A stretch of DNA of 64,000 bases from Chlorogloea sp. CCALA 695 (GTDB lineage: Bacteria > Cyanobacteriota > Cyanobacteriia > Cyanobacteriales > Chroococcidiopsidaceae), in contig NZ_PVWN01000005.1 of NCBI RefSeq assembly GCF_003003885.1, forward strand, positions 62,001 through 126,000, in the 5' to 3' direction. The notes under the pieces are model-generated. The model had not been told where the DNA came from. It worked only from the letters and a program-made list of their open reading frames with translations, and did not search any database. The translations under genes and the position numbers were made by a program. This document shows positions 3,320-25,517 of this stretch, one piece after another. Each line of letters opens with the position of its first letter. Position 1 is the stretch's first letter.

Positions 3320-4012
3320 TTAAAGACGCTGAAGTAAGTTGCGTCCGTGAGTATCTGTTCCGCAGGTACTTAACAAATTATGAATAGCAGCAAGGTTTTG
3401 TACTTGTTGCGTTTCGGTGGGGCTAGGTTTCCAAGGATTGGGATTATTGTAGGCATAGTAAGTTTCTACCCCATCAATACCTAATTGGGCTACAGCCGGG
3501 ATCAAATCGAAGTGAGACTTCTTATAACGTGCTGGGTGAGCGAGGACTGCAAGCCCTCCCGCTTGGTGAATAGAATCAATAACATTCTCCGCTTGATAAC
3601 CCTCTCCTTTGACAGCGCCTCTTTGCAAATAAGGTTGTAAGCTAGGGTGTGATGGTTCAAAGCCATAGCCCAGAATATGTACTTCAACATTCAAAATCCG
3701 GGCATTAATTTCTACCCCACTCCAAAGTTGTGGCGCGGGTTTGTCGGTTTGGGGGTGACTCCATTTCCAATCTTCTAAATAACGTTGCGCCGTTTTATAG
3801 CCTAAAATAGTATGGTGATCGGTAATGGCTAAAGCTTGTAAACCAATAGCAATAGCGCGATCTATTAATTCTTCCGGCTGAAATTTGCCATCAGAATATA
3901 CCGTGTGCATATGAAAGTTAAACCTGTAAGGACAACTTTCAGCATCAATAGTTGTAAAAACTTGCTGCAAACATTGAATTGAAGTAGAAGTTCGGGCAAA
4001 ATTCACCGCCAT
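3320..4012 (-). CDS. PHP domain metal-dependent phosphoesterase
   Basis: This 230-residue protein carries the PHP metal-binding signature: FNFHMHTVYSDG near residue 31, ITDHHTILGY, VLAHPARYKK and the closing CGTDTHG. PHP proteins hydrolyse phosphoesters using two or three metals. The stand-alone short form resembles 3',5'-nucleotide bisphosphate phosphatases, but the substrate is not settled by sequence. It is transcribed divergently from acetate kinase across a 306-base spacer and convergent to the small ORF at 3127. The start chosen gives an unforced N-terminus; no signal peptide is seen. Confidence 0.8.
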   Translation of the reverse strand: MAVNFARTSTSIQCLQQVFTTIDAESCPYRFNFHMHTVYSDGKFQPEELIDRAIAIGLQALAITDHHTILGYKTAQRYLEDWKWSHPQTDKPAPQLWSGVEINARILNVEVHILGYGFEPSHPSLQPYLQRGAVKGEGYQAENVIDSIHQAGGLAVLAHPARYKKSHFDLIPAVAQLGIDGVETYYAYNNPNPWKPSPTETQQVQNLAAIHNLLSTCGTDTHGRNLLQRL

Positions 4013-4318
4013 AACCGCCTCTGAAGGAATAAATACCTCCCTCTACTAGCTCTAACACTCTGCTTTTGAGCAAAGATTGGTGGGGTAATTAGCCGCCACC
4101 CAACAAGTGCATTGCAAACCTTTGTGGCAAAGGCTAAATACAAATAACTAAGTTATCTGAAAACGCGAAGTCAAGTATTAGGGTAAAGGTTTATATATTT
4201 TAATAACTATATCTATTCTAAGAGGTTTCGTAAGCAACTTCTGAGGATAGATGCAAAAAATTGTCAGCCCCAATACTCTGCTCTCGTTATAGGGAGGAGT
4301 TTTAAGCTAAATAAAAAT
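4013..4318. other. Divergent promoter spacer, PHP gene / acetate kinase
   Basis: This 306-base AT-rich spacer lies between two divergent genes. No gene, RNA or clear repeat is seen. The end nearest acetate kinase has a purine-rich ribosome site (GGGAGGAG, about 4290-4297). Confidence 0.5.
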
Positions 4319-5527
4319 ATGAAAATATTAGTATTAAACGCAGGTTCTAGCAGTCAAAAAAGTTGTTTGTATCAAATAGACGATAATTTACCAGATTTGC
4401 CTTTAAAGCCATTATGGTCAGCAAAAATTGACTGGACTTACTCCAAAGGGATAGCAAAGCTTAAAGTTAAAAGTAATAAAGGAGAATTGATAGAAGAATT
4501 ATCAAGTAGCGATCGCATGGCGGTAATGTCTTGTCTGCTCGATAGTTTATACAAAGGCGAGACGCAAGTAATTGATAATTTATCAGAAATTAATATTGTC
4601 GGTCATCGGGTAGTACACGGCGGCGAACATTACCGAGAAGCTACGATAATTACACAAGCAGTAATTGATGCAATTTCTCGTCTTGCTAGTTTTGCACCTG
4701 TCCACAATCCGGTTAATTTAGAAGGAATTACCGCTATTGAACAAATATTACCCGATGTGCCGCAAGTAGCAGTATTTGATACAGCTTTTCATAGCCAATT
4801 ACCAGCAATGGCGGCGGTTTATCCAATACCTTATGTATTTTTTGAGCAAGGTATTCGCCGCTATGGGTTTCACGGGATTAATCATGAATATTGCGCCCAT
4901 CGTACTGCTCAATTGTTGAATAAAGATATAGAGTCATTGCGATTAATTACTTGTCATTTGGGTAATGGCTGCTCAATTGCGGCGATTCGCGGTGGAATTA
5001 GTATTGATACAACAATGGGGTTTACGCCTTTAGATGGGTTAATGATGGGTAGCCGCTCCGGTAGTGTCGATCCAGGGATTTTAATTCATCTACTGCGACA
5101 AGGTTATGACGCGGATAAGTTAGACGAAATGCTAAATATTGCTTCTGGATTAAAGGGTATTTCTGGTTTGTCTAACGATATGCGCCAGATTATTACAGCT
5201 AAAAAAGATAATTATCGCGCGGGGTTAGCTTTTGATATGTACGTGAAGTCGCTTTGTCAGCATATAGGCGCTATGTTAGTTACTTTAGGGGGCGTAGACG
5301 CGATCGCATTTACGGGCGGTGTGGGAGAATATCAGCCGCCGATAAGAGCCGCCGCTTGCGAAGCACTGGCATTTATGGGCATAAAAATTGACCCTGATAA
5401 AAATGCCGATTCGCCAATTGATACAGATATCGCTACCAATGATTCTAATGCAAGGGTTTTAGTTATTGAAGCTCAAGAAGATTGGGCGATCGCAAGTCAA
5501 TGTTGGCAACTAGCTAAAGGGCAATAA
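4319..5527 (+). CDS. ackA: Acetate kinase
   Basis: Acetate kinase interconverts acetate plus ATP and acetyl phosphate plus ADP in the cytosol. The 402-residue protein is full length and carries the family motifs in order: NAGSSSQKSC at the start, GHRVVHGGEHY, YGFHGINHEY, CHLGNGCSIAAI, DTTMGFTPLDGLMMGSRSG and AFTGGVGEY. It stands alone with no phosphotransacetylase next to it in this window. In cyanobacteria it supports fermentative acetate release in the dark. The upstream GGGAGGAG fits the ATG at 4319. Confidence 0.95.
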   Translation: MKILVLNAGSSSQKSCLYQIDDNLPDLPLKPLWSAKIDWTYSKGIAKLKVKSNKGELIEELSSSDRMAVMSCLLDSLYKGETQVIDNLSEINIVGHRVVHGGEHYREATIITQAVIDAISRLASFAPVHNPVNLEGITAIEQILPDVPQVAVFDTAFHSQLPAMAAVYPIPYVFFEQGIRRYGFHGINHEYCAHRTAQLLNKDIESLRLITCHLGNGCSIAAIRGGISIDTTMGFTPLDGLMMGSRSGSVDPGILIHLLRQGYDADKLDEMLNIASGLKGISGLSNDMRQIITAKKDNYRAGLAFDMYVKSLCQHIGAMLVTLGGVDAIAFTGGVGEYQPPIRAAACEALAFMGIKIDPDKNADSPIDTDIATNDSNARVLVIEAQEDWAIASQCWQLAKGQ

Positions 5528-21032: not shown

Positions 21033-21656
21033 ATGCAAACTCAAACTATAGATCCAGCTAAGACGGCGCTCAACCATCACCCTACGGCGGAAGTAGCAGG
21101 TCATCATGAAGAACATCCTGACCACCGCATTTTTGGCTTAATTGTATTTTTAGTCGCAGAAGGGATGATTTTTCTGGGAATGTTTGGCGCTTACCTAGCT
21201 TTTCGGTCTGTATTACCTAGTTGGCCACCGGAAGGAACACCCCGGCTAGAATTGTTGCTACCCGGAGTCAACACTGTCTTGCTAATTTCTAGCAGCTTTG
21301 TCATGCACAATGCTGATGTGGCGGTGAAGAAAAAAGACGTTAAAGGAATGCAAAAATGGTTGGCGATTACCGCCGCTATGGGAGCAATTTTCTTAGTTGG
21401 GCAACTTTACGAGTACAGCCATTTAGAATTTACTTTAACAACAAACTTGTTTGCTAGTGCCTTTTACGTGCTAACAGGTTTTCACGGATTGCACGTATTT
21501 ATCGGAGTTACAGCAATTGTTGCCGTATTGTGGCGCAGTCGCACTGCTGGACATTACAGCAGCGAAAAGCACTTTGGCGTAGAAGCTGCCGAAATTTACT
21601 GGCACTTTGTAGACATAGTTTGGATTATTTTGTTTGGGTTGTTGTACTTGCTTTAA
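21033..21656 (+). CDS. ctaE: Cytochrome c oxidase subunit III
   Basis: The 207-residue subunit III has five or so helices and the family motifs FLVAEGMIFLGMFGAYLAFR, YVLTGFHGLHVFIGV and EIYWHFVDIVWIILFGLLYL. The N-terminus carries a His-rich polar stretch (HHPTAEVAGHHEEHPDH). It ends the ctaCDE operon and is followed by a strong terminator. Confidence 0.95.
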   Translation: MQTQTIDPAKTALNHHPTAEVAGHHEEHPDHRIFGLIVFLVAEGMIFLGMFGAYLAFRSVLPSWPPEGTPRLELLLPGVNTVLLISSSFVMHNADVAVKKKDVKGMQKWLAITAAMGAIFLVGQLYEYSHLEFTLTTNLFASAFYVLTGFHGLHVFIGVTAIVAVLWRSRTAGHYSSEKHFGVEAAEIYWHFVDIVWIILFGLLYLL

Positions 21657-21675
21657 GTTTTTTACTAGCCATAAC

Positions 21676-21701
21676 AAAAGCCTCCAACTGGAGGCTTTTT
21701 T
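21676..21701 (+). terminator. Rho-independent terminator of the cta operon
   Basis: Arms AAAAGCCTCCA (21676-21686) and TGGAGGCTTTT (21689-21699) are perfect complements, and the T-run continues to 21701. It lies 20 bases after ctaE. Confidence 0.85.
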
Positions 21702-21741
21702 AAATGCGCGATTACTTTTTATAGTAATTATTAGGTTAAAG

Positions 21742-21787
21742 GCGATCGCTTGAATACTTCAAGGTCTATTAACGAATTTTTCCGTAT
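21742..21787. repeat. Left copy of a direct repeat flanking hicAB
   Basis: It starts with HIP1 (GCGATCGC), then TGAATACTTCAA and TTTTTCCGTATA. It matches 22352-22397 in the same direction with about six or seven differences over nearly 50 bases. The pair brackets the hicAB cassette. Confidence 0.6.
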
Positions 21788-21823
21788 AGTGAGAAAATAA
21801 GATGGAAAGCTAATATAATCTCC

Positions 21824-22045
21824 ATGCCCAGGAAGATTCGAGAGTTAAAATCTCAGATTGCGCGTGAAGGATTTATTTACTTGCCCAAACGTGGCAAAGG
21901 TAGCCATGAGCGTTGGCAGCATCCTCTACTAGGAAAAACACTGACAATCTCTGGCAAAGATGGAGATGATGTGCCACTCTACTTATAAAAACAAATAGCA
22001 AATTTACTTGCGGCACTGGAATTAAGGGAGGACGAGGATTTATGA
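21824..22045 (+). pseudogene. hicA: HicA-family toxin with in-frame nonsense codon
   Basis: The frame starts MPRKIRELKSQIAREGFIYL, keeps the catalytic His region (GKGSHERWQHP) and the strand LTISGKDGDD, then hits TAA at 21986-21988 (codon 55). Beyond the stop the same frame continues KQIANLLAALELREDEDL and ends TGA at 22043-22045, overlapping the hicB ATG as ATGA. That conserved coupling and the helix-like tail show that the original toxin was about 73 residues. The 54-residue product still has the catalytic His but lacks the C-terminal helix, so activity is doubtful. Confidence 0.65.
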
Positions 22046-22260
22046 ATCGGTACAGCATGATTGTTCAATGGTCTGATGAAGATCGGCTTTTCCTAGTTAC
22101 GATTCCAGAATTTGCCAATCTTGTTGTCATGCCTTGTACTCATGGTAAAAATCGTGAGGAGGCAATTCGTAATGGTGAAGAAATTATTGAAATGTATCTG
22201 GAAGCTTGGCAAGCAGAAGGCAAAACTGTTCCTGAACCTAGGACACTTCAGATTGCCTAA
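22042..22260 (+). CDS. hicB: HicB-family antitoxin
   Basis: This 72-residue protein has the partial RNase H-like HicB fold (YSMIVQWSDEDRLFLVTIPEF, HGKNREEAIRNGEEIIEMYL, then PEPRTLQIA). It neutralises HicA mRNA-interferase. It lacks the C-terminal DNA-binding domain found in longer HicB proteins. Its start overlaps the ancestral hicA stop. The toxin partner here is interrupted, so hicB may persist as an orphan antitoxin. Confidence 0.8.
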   Translation: MNRYSMIVQWSDEDRLFLVTIPEFANLVVMPCTHGKNREEAIRNGEEIIEMYLEAWQAEGKTVPEPRTLQIA

Positions 22261-22351
22261 TGGTTGCAGTTAATTTAATAAATATAGAAAAATTAGCAAT
22301 GCGCTGAGAGGAGAAGTGCAAAGTGTTTTTGTAATTGTGATTATTTGAAAA

Positions 22352-22397
22352 GCGATCGCCTGAACACTTCAAACTCTACTAAAGAATTTTTCCGTAT
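22352..22397. repeat. Right copy of the hicAB-flanking direct repeat
   Basis: It starts with HIP1 (GCGATCGC), then TGAACACTTCAA and TTTTTCCGTATA. It is the direct-orientation partner of 21742-21787, about 610 bases apart. Confidence 0.6.
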
Positions 22398-22452
22398 AAT
22401 ACCCTTTACAGGGTAGATACACAGAAAACTTCTGTATAGTTTCCAAATAATG

Positions 22453-23250
22453 TTATTCTCCCGTTTCACTAGCTTGATTAACGAAAAAGCGAGTCACTAT
22501 TTGGTTCAGCAGATCATGAGGATTGGAGTTAGTATTAGCTGCAACCTGTCTTAATCTAGAAATGTTATCTGAAGATAGACGCAGCGGAGCAAACTGTTCA
22601 GGAAAAGCCCAACTGCATATCTCGCACTCTAACTGGCATCCACGACATGATGTACTTTTGAAATTGTTGCACTCATCACAGAGAGGTTGCCAATTACTGA
22701 GTTCGTTCCCTCCACCTCTGGTACGCGGCACCTTATGATCCTGCTGAAATCGAACTTCTGGCTCCGATCTGCTACATACTGGACATCTATGCTGATAAGT
22801 TTCCAGGATTTGTAGCCAATCTGTATCAGAAAGCTTAATTCGTGGAACTCTTTTTTCACTCAAGGATAGGCTCACGAGTTGGTATGTTTTACCTTCTCTG
22901 CCAATCCCAGTGATGCCTTCCTCGCCTTGCAATTCTCGCAAACGCCGAAAAACGTCTACATAGGGTTTATAGGGTTTGCTGCCTGAGTATTGATTTTTTC
23001 TAAAGCGTTCAATCGCTTCTCTTAGTTCATCCTCTTTTACACGAGGTCCTGGAATACCATGACCTGCAGGCCACAGTTCTTCCAAAAGAACTCGATAGTA
23101 AGACTTATTGGCTTCACTGGGACATACAAATTCTTGGCAAACTTCTTCAAGCCAGACTTCTCGGATAATGTTTCCTAGAACGTCCTGCTCACTAACAGGT
23201 GCAAGGGACAAAAACTTTTGCCTCCCACGGCTTTTCCGCTCAGTTGCCAT
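22453..23250 (-). CDS. HNH restriction endonuclease candidate
   Basis: This 265-residue protein ends in a zinc-bound HNH nuclease module. It starts HRCPVCSRSE with a first CxxC, continues as FQQDHKVPRTRGG (HNH His) and NWQPLCDECNNFK (Asn and second CxxC), and is followed by more Cys pairs (CRGCQLECEIC). The N-terminal 130 residues look like a DNA-recognition region of unknown type. It overlaps the upstream HTH gene by one base (TAATG) and is divergent from a C5 methyltransferase. Together these form a type II restriction-modification layout. Target sequence unknown. No HIP1 octamer is seen in this gene. Confidence 0.75.
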   Translation of the reverse strand: MATERKSRGRQKFLSLAPVSEQDVLGNIIREVWLEEVCQEFVCPSEANKSYYRVLLEELWPAGHGIPGPRVKEDELREAIERFRKNQYSGSKPYKPYVDVFRRLRELQGEEGITGIGREGKTYQLVSLSLSEKRVPRIKLSDTDWLQILETYQHRCPVCSRSEPEVRFQQDHKVPRTRGGGNELSNWQPLCDECNNFKSTSCRGCQLECEICSWAFPEQFAPLRLSSDNISRLRQVAANTNSNPHDLLNQIVTRFFVNQASETGE

Positions 23251-23483
23251 TAGTTATCTCCTCGTAGTAACCAGATGGGGTCAATATCCAGCACTTTTGA
23301 GATGGCCTCAAGTTCATAATCTTTCAGAGATCTGACTTGACGCTCAATCTCTGAAATATCGGACTGTTCTAACTTGATTCCATAATCAACGTTGAGAGCC
23401 GCCGCTAATTCAACCTGGTCTAAATTGTTTTGCAGCCTGACCTGACGAATTCTTGCTCCACTAATATTCTGCTTTTCTCCCAC
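23250..23483 (-). CDS. XRE-type HTH regulator (controller-protein candidate)
   Basis: The 77-residue single-domain helix-turn-helix protein reads IRQVRLQNNLDQVELAAALN, then IKLEQSDISEIERQVRSLKDYELEAISKVLDIDP. Size and fold match C proteins that time restriction-modification expression. Its stop and the HNH start share a base, so nuclease translation is coupled to it. A perfect dyad lies 51-73 bases upstream of its start, in the promoter shared with the methyltransferase. Confidence 0.75.
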   Translation of the reverse strand: MGEKQNISGARIRQVRLQNNLDQVELAAALNVDYGIKLEQSDISEIERQVRSLKDYELEAISKVLDIDPIWLLRGDN

Positions 23484-23533
23484 GGTTAAAGCCTCAACCT
23501 CATAGCGAAATGTTATCTAGAAAGAAGCTTGCC

Positions 23534-23556
23534 GTGTAGACGAAAATCGTCTACAC
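23534..23556. promoter_or_regulatory. Perfect dyad in the R-M divergent promoter (C-box candidate)
   Basis: Arms GTGTAGACGA (23534-23543) and TCGTCTACAC (23547-23556) are perfect complements with a 3-base AAA spacer. The dyad lies in the 137-base gap between the HTH gene and the methyltransferase, without a T-run. Best explained as the regulator's operator (inference). Confidence 0.6.
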
Positions 23557-23620
23557 TAGCTTTTAATAATGAAATCACCTATGATTAGCTCCATCATTAG
23601 ACCCTATATCTAGTTTTGAT

Positions 23621-24514
23621 ATGCGTGTCTCCTCCTTCTTCGCTGGCATTGGCGGTTTTTATCTTGGCTTTGAAAGAGCAGGGATGAACGTCGTGTTTCA
23701 ATGTGAAATAGATCCTTTTTGTCAAAAGATCCTTAAGCGCCACTGGCCACATATTCCCTTACATGAAGACATTACGACCCTCAACCCAACAACTATCCCT
23801 GCCTCTGACTTGTGGTGTGCCGGATGGCCTTGCCAAGACCTCAGCACTGCCAACACGGATCGAACAGGACTTGCAGGAAAGCGAAGTGGTCTCTTCTTCG
23901 CGTTTATGGATTTGGTTAGAGAAATTCATCCAGCGTGGTTGGTCATGGAAAACGTGCCCGGCGTGCTCTCCGCAGAACAAGGAACCGCTCTTGAGACAGT
24001 TATCGACACGCTCGAAGAGAATGGGTATTTGGGAGGATGGGTATCGTGTAACGCTATCCATTCGGGCTTACCCCACAATCGAGACAGAGTGTTCTTTGTC
24101 GCAAGTTTTAGATCGGAACGTGCCTATCACTTCTTTGCTGACAGTAGCGAATTGTCTAGGGATACTTCGTCGAGAGAATCGAGCAAAACGCAAGCTAGAT
24201 CCGATTTTCGTCAAGGCACTCTCGGAGACAATCCGCTTGTGGTACAACGTCGCGGTGGCTTCGGGTATACCATGGCAAAAAGCATCTGCCCCACGTTACG
24301 TGCCCAAACTGGAGGACATCAAGGAGGCCATTCAGACAGACCAATACTCTGTGGCGAGAAACTTGACGTGGACAGAGTGGGAGAGGCTTATGGGTTTTCC
24401 TCCCGGATGGACGGTCGTAGAGGGAGACTCCTTGGCAACGCCGTCGTCCCTGCAATCAGCGAATGGATCGGAAGACGAATCTTAGAAATTGAAATGATGT
24501 CAGATGCCAGCTAG
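23621..24514 (+). CDS. DNA (cytosine-5) methyltransferase
   Basis: This 297-residue enzyme transfers methyl from SAM to C5 of cytosine. Motif I is FFAGIGGFYLGFERAG (residues 6-20), motif IV GWPCQDLS with catalytic Cys71, motif VI MENVPG (110-114), motif VIII HSGLPHNRDRVFF (148-159) and motif X LLGNAVVPAISEWIG (270-284). The target-recognition region is short and includes PTLRAQTGGHQGG. It is divergent from the HTH-HNH pair and protects against that nuclease (inference). Motif IX is not evident in this frame, while a 240-codon +1 frame inside the gene (23763-24485) carries methyltransferase-like strings. See findings. Confidence 0.85.
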   Translation: MRVSSFFAGIGGFYLGFERAGMNVVFQCEIDPFCQKILKRHWPHIPLHEDITTLNPTTIPASDLWCAGWPCQDLSTANTDRTGLAGKRSGLFFAFMDLVREIHPAWLVMENVPGVLSAEQGTALETVIDTLEENGYLGGWVSCNAIHSGLPHNRDRVFFVASFRSERAYHFFADSSELSRDTSSRESSKTQARSDFRQGTLGDNPLVVQRRGGFGYTMAKSICPTLRAQTGGHQGGHSDRPILCGEKLDVDRVGEAYGFSSRMDGRRGRLLGNAVVPAISEWIGRRILEIEMMSDAS

Positions 24515-24641
24515 CTAACAAGTCGATGAAACGGACGGTCGATAGATCTCGGTGAAGATGCAAAGGTTATCTGCCGCCGCTTATATTAGTCGTTAGTGTA
24601 AATACTTTCTAGGAAGAAGTGCGATCACACAACACCCCAAT

Positions 24642-25517
24642 CTAAGGAACGCCTTTATCCCACACCCACACCCTTCCCGCCCCTACAACTTCTGCCAAAA
24701 TACTAATTAGACGGTACAAAGCAACAACACTCAAAATAAGTCCTGGAGAAAATAAAGATCCAAGTAGAGCGGTAGCTGTGGCTTCAAATACGCCAATTCC
24801 TCCCGGCGCTCCTGGTACAACTAAGCCAAGCAGCCAAGCTAGGCTAAAACTACTAATTAAAATCGGAATTTGATTGAAATTTACGGGATGTAGCGCCCAA
24901 AAAGTCAACACAAATCCCGCGCCGCGCAATCCTAAAAAACCTAGTTCGCCTAATAAGGGTAAAAAAGGATAATGCTCGATCTTTTTGACATCATTACCTT
25001 TATTTTTGAGCTTGCTAACGAGCTTAAGCCCTTGGTTGAGAATTAGGGGATGAATAGTGATCGCAACTACGGCTAAACTAAAAACTTGCAACAATCTATT
25101 TTGCGATGTTCCTAGTAAAGCCACAAGTAAAGCGGCGGCGGCTAGTAAAAGTGGTTCTAGCAAAACGCTCAAAGTAGCGATACTGGTGGGAATATTTGCA
25201 TCCGTTGCTAAACGTATCCGCCCGTAATAATGCCAAATATTGCCGGGAATATATTTAGCAATATTTGTTTTTAGGTAAACTCGGATTGCCCAAAAACCGC
25301 TAACTTTTTGATTGAGAGTCTGAAAAATCCAACTCCATACCCACCCCGTCCAAATATGCGCCAGTAAAGTTACTCCTAAAGCGCTACCCAGGTAAACCCA
25401 GCCTTGATTGCTAATTTTGATTTGTACTACTTCTTGCCAATTGTCTTTAAGAGCTTTAGCTAGAAAAAAGAGCATCCCCCCTAAAATTAGCGATCGCACT
25501 AAAAATTTCAGCTTCAT
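24642..25517 (-). CDS. UPF0104 / lysylphosphatidylglycerol-synthase-like membrane protein
   Basis: This 291-residue integral membrane protein has about seven to eight helices. Conserved blocks are KTNIAKYIPGNIWHYYGR and the late PGAPGGIGVFEATATALLG followed by ALYRLISILAEVVGA. It is like the membrane half of MprF without the aminoacyl-transferase domain. Flippase or lipid-transfer function is assumed for the family, not shown. It overlaps the trpE stop by 4 bases (ATGA). Confidence 0.8.
   Translation of the reverse strand: MKLKFLVRSLILGGMLFFLAKALKDNWQEVVQIKISNQGWVYLGSALGVTLLAHIWTGWVWSWIFQTLNQKVSGFWAIRVYLKTNIAKYIPGNIWHYYGRIRLATDANIPTSIATLSVLLEPLLLAAAALLVALLGTSQNRLLQVFSLAVVAITIHPLILNQGLKLVSKLKNKGNDVKKIEHYPFLPLLGELGFLGLRGAGFVLTFWALHPVNFNQIPILISSFSLAWLLGLVVPGAPGGIGVFEATATALLGSLFSPGLILSVVALYRLISILAEVVGAGRVWVWDKGVP

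Follow-up and report, generated by a model that had tools for sequence, protein, structure and literature searches.

How a DNA methyltransferase that is without one of its conserved motifs could be a working enzyme is the question raised by a compact locus of the cyanobacterium Chlorogloea sp. CCALA 695. The locus lies in a stretch of 64,000 nucleotides, called the window in the following (assembly GCF_003003885.1, contig NZ_PVWN01000005.1, positions 62,001–126,000 of the forward strand), and consists of genes for an HNH nuclease, a helix-turn-helix (HTH) regulator and a C5 cytosine methyltransferase. We will argue that the missing motif would be supplied by a second open reading frame (ORF) nested in the methyltransferase gene, and that the locus is likely to be an HTH-regulated Type II restriction-modification (R-M) system with a methyltransferase of the M.EcoHK31I kind, in which the two subunits, alpha and beta, are encoded in overlapping frames. 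Neither the nested ORF nor the conserved palindrome described below is part of the original prediction for this DNA.

The alpha frame encodes 297 amino acids (23621–24514, forward strand). It matches the Pfam family DNA_methylase with an E-value of 3.8e-47, over residues 1–175 only, and the PADLOC model MTase_II with 6.3e-53 over residues 2–289. The protein has motifs I–VIII and X and a candidate target-recognition region, and is without motif IX. In an alignment of alpha sequences (A2, 16 rows), C71 of the PCQ motif, the predicted catalytic cysteine (codon at 23831–23833, forward strand), is invariant, as are G272, N273 and A274 in the motif X stretch (GNAVV..., 24434–24481, forward strand). 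The catalytic role of C71 is one that we take over from the C5-methyltransferase family.

The beta frame (23763–24485, forward strand; 240 amino acids) lies wholly inside alpha in the +1 frame. Its residues 183–222 align to positions 255–299 of the DNA_methylase profile (E 0.022, below the curated cut-off), and residues 200–217 (24360–24413, forward strand), the columns of which are mostly invariant in the beta alignment (A1, 19 rows), form what we take to be motif IX, consistent with this profile position. The order of motifs along the DNA is I–VIII (alpha), IX (beta) and X (alpha), spread over two frames. By pattern and alignments, the same partition, with motif IX only in beta, is found in the window's family and in the relatives L021 and L042, which are introduced below.

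The divergence among 18 cyanobacterial sequences shows that both frames are under constraint. In the 47 alpha codons before beta, the divergence at codon positions 1, 2 and 3 is 0.13, 0.05 and 0.47, and inside the overlap with beta the corresponding values are 0.19, 0.06 and 0.18. At fourfold-degenerate sites of alpha, 1451 of 2351 comparisons differ before beta (0.62, 24 codons), compared to 2958 of 14670 inside it (0.20, 150 codons), a difference that was reached by none of 5000 codon permutations. Taken in blocks of 11–12 codons, the fourfold divergence is 0.57–0.65 up to codon 47, then 0.17, and then 0.05–0.42 up to codon 144. Because the block-wise divergence drops after codon 47, falling from 0.57 to 0.17 at the ATG of beta, we place the start of the constraint at this ATG. 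The codon is kept in 17 of the 18 sequences, and the remaining one (L015) has an ATG four codons upstream.

The frames themselves are consistent with this picture. Across the overlap, the +1 frame is stop-free in 18 of 19 sequences, the exception being L021, where beta ends just after motif IX, while the +2 frame contains 4–15 stops in all of them. Inside the overlap, each of the 18 comparisons with the window gives a higher conservation in the +1 than in the +2 frame, with values of 0.76 vs 0.57 for L014 and 0.52 vs 0.36 for L021 and an excess of up to 0.19; before the overlap, the two frames are about equally conserved. It is important to note that a null model of synonymous shuffling overstates the significance of such values; it gives high z-scores for the +2 frame of related monomers as well, and because of this it was set aside. 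The significance rests instead on the within-gene control and on the comparison of the +1 with the +2 frame.

These results bear on the possibility that alpha is a decayed monomer, in which motif IX was thrown out of frame by two insertions or deletions and the +1 ORF is a functionless relic. The motif order along the DNA is indeed that of a monomer, and some monomeric methyltransferases have a +1 frame that is likewise open for 160–290 amino acids and resembles beta residues 27–153. However, beta keeps its start, and very nearly its length, across highly diverged sequences, and the fourfold sites are strongly constrained. In addition, nine pairs of the monomers L037–L041 show an excess of the +1 over the +2 frame of only 0.01–0.04 over the whole ORF (99 pairs were compared in this control, and the figures are those among the pairs listed), as opposed to the excess of up to 0.19 inside the overlap here. 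Some pairs with L047 are not flat: L037/L047 has 0.48 in the +1 and 0.34 in the +2 frame, although L047 is non-nested and has its motif IX in a separate downstream ORF. Overall, we regard decay as extremely improbable.

Another option is that beta is reached by ribosomal frameshifting from alpha, which would give an alpha-beta fusion instead of a protein with its own start. Motifs IX and X are in different frames, and a frameshift product would join motifs I–VIII to motif IX; moreover, the beta ATG has no obvious Shine-Dalgarno sequence by eye, and no clear ribosome-binding site. In the viral locus L054, described below, the motif I part of the methyltransferase and the motif IX ORF share a frame, the layout expected from a shift or from a sequencing error. 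On the other hand, the conserved beta ATG where the +1 constraint begins corresponds to alpha codon 47 and lies upstream of motifs IV–VIII, which a late shift would not explain, and the product would be without motif X unless the ribosome shifted back. Frameshifting is in our judgement very unlikely, and internal initiation of beta is the preferred reading. The original prediction had treated the methyltransferase as a single ordinary protein; the C5 methyltransferase ORF is real, and the enzyme is very probably an obligate alpha/beta pair as judged from the overlapping frames.

We now consider the relatives of the pair. A single scan of genome contigs with beta gave 20 loci (L003–L022), 19 in cyanobacterial records and one in a Terriglobia bin. 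In 18 of the 20, tblastn recovers full or nearly full alpha and beta at one fixed +1 offset, and in these (L003–L018, L020 and L021) the identity of alpha minus that of beta is between −2 and +8 points. Two of the hosts are Calothrix sp. PCC 7103 (L010) and Laspinema olomoucense D3b (L018). Of the other two loci, L019 is cut off by a contig end and its alpha stops early, and L022 has an internal gap in both frames. The latter locus (Microcoleus sp. CAWBG506, 3964–4456) has a methyltransferase without some 80–90 internal residues and is apparently a decayed copy. L042, which is a viral contig, encodes an alpha of 60% identity and a nested beta. The two frames persist together, then, in cyanobacteria, one acidobacterium and one viral contig.

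The occurrence of beta is sparse. It is present in two of 386 sampled genomes of the window's phylum, namely the window's own and G278. The phylum of L021 was sampled with 199 genomes, of which one contains the complete beta frame; weak partial matches in four belong to monomeric methyltransferases with motif IX in the main frame. No tblastn match to the window's beta was obtained in phage or plasmid records, and scanning viral contigs with the beta alignment gave no match either, even though L042, a locus with beta, came up with the alpha alignment. A scan with the +1 ORF of L036 as the query was also negative. At the DNA level, the alpha gene of the window has no match in 20,395 Escherichia coli records, and in plasmids the only match covers 50 bases close to the 3′ end of the query. 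A separate observation concerns L036–L041, which are monomeric C5 methyltransferases with motif IX in the main frame and a +1 frame open for 160–290 amino acids; this frame is similar to a part of beta within residues 23–157, and it is possible that such open frames were a starting point for nested genes.

We next turn to the other two genes of the locus. The HNH nuclease (22453–23250, reverse strand; 265 amino acids), a putative cognate restriction endonuclease, has its HNH domain at residues 156–199 (22654–22785, reverse strand) and matches Pfam HNH with 3.9e-9 and PADLOC REase_II with 1e-10. Its alignment (A3, 14 rows) shows invariant zinc-type cysteines, an Asp-His pair and Asn residues, as well as a conserved cysteine-rich tail (C-x2-C...C-x2-C...WAFPE). 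The AlphaFold2 model has a mean predicted local distance difference test (pLDDT) score of 74, and its N-terminal half is predicted to be mainly helical. The XRE-type HTH regulator (23250–23483, reverse strand; 77 amino acids, GTG start, alignment A4) matches Pfam HTH_3 with 2.3e-7 and, weakly, PADLOC Control_protein with 4e-5.

In agreement with the original prediction, ORF coordinates and Pfam matches place the three genes as described there, with a 77-residue HTH protein divergent from the methyltransferase. The TAATG junction between the HTH and HNH genes is likewise borne out, since the stop codon of the HTH gene (TAA) and the start codon of the HNH gene (ATG) have base 23250 in common. 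The junction recurs in seven of 13 relatives in which the HTH end was found (L003–L006, L008, L010 and L020).

The HNH gene adjoins alpha in 15 of the 17 loci with a readable flank, which are the window, L003–L011, L013, L015–L018, L020 and L021 (the HNH gene of L004 is cut by a contig end). The loci left out are L002/L012, L014 and L019, where the end is too near alpha, L022 with its decayed methyltransferase, and the viral L042. In 13 of the 15, an intact HTH gene precedes the HNH gene, which is divergent from alpha. The sequence features of a Type II R-M system, a methyltransferase gene and a linked putative endonuclease gene, are both found, and an HTH-regulated R-M unit of an HNH nuclease and a C5 methyltransferase is well supported by this recurring linkage.

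Between the divergent genes there is a perfect 23-bp palindrome (23534–23556, strandless) with the 17-bp core TAGACGA-NNN-TCGTCTA starting at 23537. The core is present between the HTH and alpha genes in all 13 loci where both are intact, exactly in 12 and with one change in L006, and the intergenic DNA around it diverges among the loci. It is also seen in L002/L012 and L017, and it is absent from L009, where the 5′ end of the HTH gene is gone, and from L014, L015, L019, L021, L022 and L042. In the host's own 5.23-Mb genome it occurs once. The palindrome is probably the operator of the HTH protein. A reading as a terminator, suggested by a terminator-like score, was rejected, as the element sits between divergent genes. 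A promoter scan gave one match, compared to a mean of 3.1 for shuffled sequences. As a side observation, the palindrome TAGACGANNNTCGTCTA has many copies in the 90-kb viral contig IMGVR_UViG_3300028797_000140 (L122, L123, L126, L138 and L148). There are 36 strand-wise matches in L122 alone, and each of the other contigs listed has one site.

From the frames, the motif partition, the double-frame constraint, the palindrome and the gene linkage, we infer the following scheme. One DNA stretch would give rise to two methyltransferase polypeptides, alpha and, from an internal ATG in the +1 frame, beta. Beta would associate with alpha and provide the small-domain motif IX that alpha is without, and the pair would methylate a cytosine within the recognition site. 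The HNH protein would cleave the same site if it is unmodified, and the HTH protein would bind the palindrome between the divergent genes and set the balance, probably by repressing its own HTH-HNH operon, a sign that is an assumption on our part.

Two alternatives to this scheme concern the role of the HNH protein. It might be a nuclease of the homing or modification-dependent type that accompanies an orphan methyltransferase, rather than the cognate restriction enzyme. In line with this, alpha and beta occur without an intact HNH gene in three loci: L015 has none, L017 has a 70-residue remnant, and L042 has neither HNH nor HTH within the 4.9 kb of viral sequence covered. Furthermore, the third-ranked Foldseek match of the HNH model is the modification-dependent EcoKMcrA, at a non-significant E of 0.2. 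Against it stand the frequency and the order of the genes given above (15 of 17 readable loci, 13 of them with the HNH gene behind an intact HTH gene and divergent from alpha) and the REase_II match. Moreover, loss of the restriction enzyme before the methyltransferase is the ordinary direction of decay. We consider this alternative unlikely. In the second alternative, the methylation is regulatory and there is no restriction function at all. Orphan C5 methyltransferases are common; however, the nuclease and the regulator are here linked and conserved, which leaves this option highly improbable.

It is important to point out that, besides the missing Shine-Dalgarno sequence, the L037/L047 pair and the three loci without an intact HNH gene, a number of observations weigh against the R-M system with an alpha/beta enzyme that we favor. 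Constraint is weaker over the N-terminal half of beta, where the fourfold divergence reaches 0.42, than over the remainder, and the structure prediction for beta is poor (mean pLDDT 47) and was not used. Compared with the PDB by Foldseek, the HNH model has no match at E ≤0.001, the best being at 0.085. L009 has lost most of the HTH gene (the 5′ part), and its palindrome is gone too, and in L021 there is no HTH gene and the HNH gene is downstream on the same strand. A single conserved palindrome is seen instead of a two-site C-box; the search required perfect arms of at least 6, so an imperfect second site could escape it. Motif avoidance was also tried as a way to the recognition site. Over the 323,047 bases sampled, GGCC, CYCGRG and YGGCCR occur at 0.15, 0.05 and 0.62 of expectation and several 6-mers are at zero; since many palindromes are this strongly avoided, none is assignable here and the approach was rejected.

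The surroundings of the locus are relevant to its origin. As had been noted originally, the octamer GCGATCGC (HIP1) is absent between 22360 and 25489. None of the 67 gaps in the window exceeds this one, which measures 3138 bases from start to start and also takes in a host gene at 24642–25517. Genome-wide there are 5122 sites in 5.23 Mb, or about one per 1020 bases, and in 259,047 genome bases sampled outside the window, 10 of 227 gaps reach or exceed 3131 bases. Because gaps of 3 kb are thus common in this genome, the gap is no evidence of transfer, and a recently acquired island recognized by HIP1 depletion has to be rejected, the depletion not being beyond the genome norm. Of the R-M island originally proposed, the recurring HTH/HNH/methyltransferase arrangement stands and the HIP1 argument for recent transfer falls.

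The host gene at 24642–25517 is found beside trpE in five of five same-genus relatives, and no matches to the HNH, HTH or alpha genes were present beside it in the DNA fetched there from these five genomes. The flank reached 12.6 kb in G308, the longest, and less in the other four, some stopping at contig ends. In G308, the cytochrome oxidase subunit gene that flanks the island in the window is about 1.4 Mb from the trpE-linked gene on the same contig. The region 21033–25517 is hence rearranged in either the window genome or G308, and the island site is a junction peculiar to the window genome among the genomes seen, which does not tell the time of arrival. Horizontal spread is better supported by the patchy occurrence of beta and by the absence of the system beside this host gene in the DNA fetched from the five same-genus genomes, neither of which dates a transfer. 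Just past the 3′ end of the HNH gene, HicA-like and HicB-like ORFs (21824–22260, forward strand) form a probable toxin-antitoxin pair, with Pfam values of 1.2e-7 for HicA and 8.6e-6 for HicB, the latter slightly under its cut-off.

The next question is how widespread such nesting is. With the alpha alignment, 27 viral loci were collected, picked by two short peptide patterns, and they are therefore a biased sample. Motif IX is in a +1 ORF inside the methyltransferase ORF in 13 of them, in the main frame in seven, downstream in two and not found in five; it is in the +2 frame in none. A first motif IX pattern was too strict, giving two nested cases of 27, and was loosened after the translations had been read, so the figure of 13 is not a blind one. 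Of six +1 ORFs tested from these viral relatives, five match phrog_1008, annotated as DNA methyltransferase, and the sixth, that of L054, matches phrog_116, phrog_363 and phrog_16143, the first two via the motif I part. The beta of the window does not match phrog_1008 even at E 1.

L054, which is among the 13, is not a case of simple nesting (1839–2857): the motif I part is in the frame of the motif IX ORF and the middle part in another. Programmed shift, sequencing error and decay are candidate explanations of this layout. The arrangement also varies among annotated phages. In Paenibacillus phage Diva, DIVA_50 ('g49 internal gene') lies inside the methyltransferase gene DIVA_49 in the +1 frame, in phage ABMM1 the match sits in one annotated methyltransferase coding sequence, and in phages Euratis and Scottish two methylase genes follow each other instead.

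Conservation in the L063/L064 pair is 0.70 in the +1 and 0.59 in the +2 frame, and the divergence at codon positions 1, 2 and 3 is 0.26, 0.19 and 0.22. These values suggest double-frame constraint in at least one viral pair. The L043/L046 pair, with 0.19 and 0.17, shows no double-frame signal, which weakens the general claim, and the case for viral nesting is weaker than that for the window's family. With this in mind, we lean slightly towards the view that the C5 methyltransferases of phages and bacteria include, as a major form that has stayed hidden, enzymes with a nested, out-of-frame motif IX subunit. If so, an overprinted and often unannotated partner would be needed by many enzymes now listed as monomers, and these would be inactive in their annotated form. 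In the open-licence literature, searched by titles and the starts of abstracts, we found among the matches listed no report of nested methyltransferase subunits as a wider class beyond the papers cited here.

For the window itself, an obligate pair would mean that the methyltransferase given by a gene caller, alpha only, is inactive, which affects methylome prediction and the cloning of such enzymes. The locus would be a clean system for how an overprinted gene becomes indispensable and a naturally split methyltransferase with both halves within 0.9 kb, and a motif IX in the +1 frame could serve as a sequence rule for finding more. To our knowledge, same-strand dual coding over nearly the full length, with two conserved proteins that probably belong to one enzyme, has rarely been documented in bacteria.

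Finally, we compare the locus with known systems. In R-M systems of the PvuII and Esp1396I type, a short HTH gene for the C protein is just upstream of the nuclease gene and the methyltransferase gene is divergent, and classical C proteins have a tandem two-site C-box upstream of the C gene. The window resembles them in its short HTH gene preceding the HNH gene, the divergent methyltransferase and the weak Control_protein match, and differs in having one conserved palindrome rather than the double C-box. The DIVA_49/DIVA_50 pair and the phrog_1008 proteins share with it a +1 ORF inside a methyltransferase gene; however, they are distant in sequence from the window's beta, which has no tblastn match in phages. 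A different phenomenon, out-of-frame HNH genes within insertions of phage methylases, is described in PMC11855218.

Beta of the window can also be compared with the second subunits of two-polypeptide methyltransferases. Agmenellum quadruplicatum is, like the window's host, a cyanobacterium. It is the source of M.AquI (CYCGRG) according to a title cited in PMC3404938, in which M.AquI and M.EcoHK31I are given as enzymes of two polypeptides each, and motifs IX and X of M.AquI, together with half of the variable region, are on the small subunit. As with the alpha and beta frames here, the catalytic part and motif IX are on separate polypeptides. In the window, by contrast, beta is nested and alpha retains motif X, so that the split is not of the M.AquI type.

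The large gene of M.EcoHK31I reportedly also encodes the small subunit, in an alternative frame (Lee, Kam and Shaw, 1995). EcoHK31I is named among the Type II systems of E. coli (PMC6456624), its methyltransferase, a naturally split enzyme, modifies YGGCCR at the inner cytosine (PMC3439449), and the large subunit carries motifs I–VIII, motif X and the target-recognition domain, the small one bearing motif IX only (PMC3404938). Compared by motif partition, the window's alpha likewise has motifs I–VIII and X, with motif IX on a second reading frame. Its system differs in being cyanobacterial and in having an HNH nuclease, an HTH regulator and a conserved palindrome. The kind of enzyme is accordingly a known one, and what is new is a cyanobacterial system with a regulator and a palindrome, the strength of the evidence for dual coding, and the hint that nesting is common in viruses.

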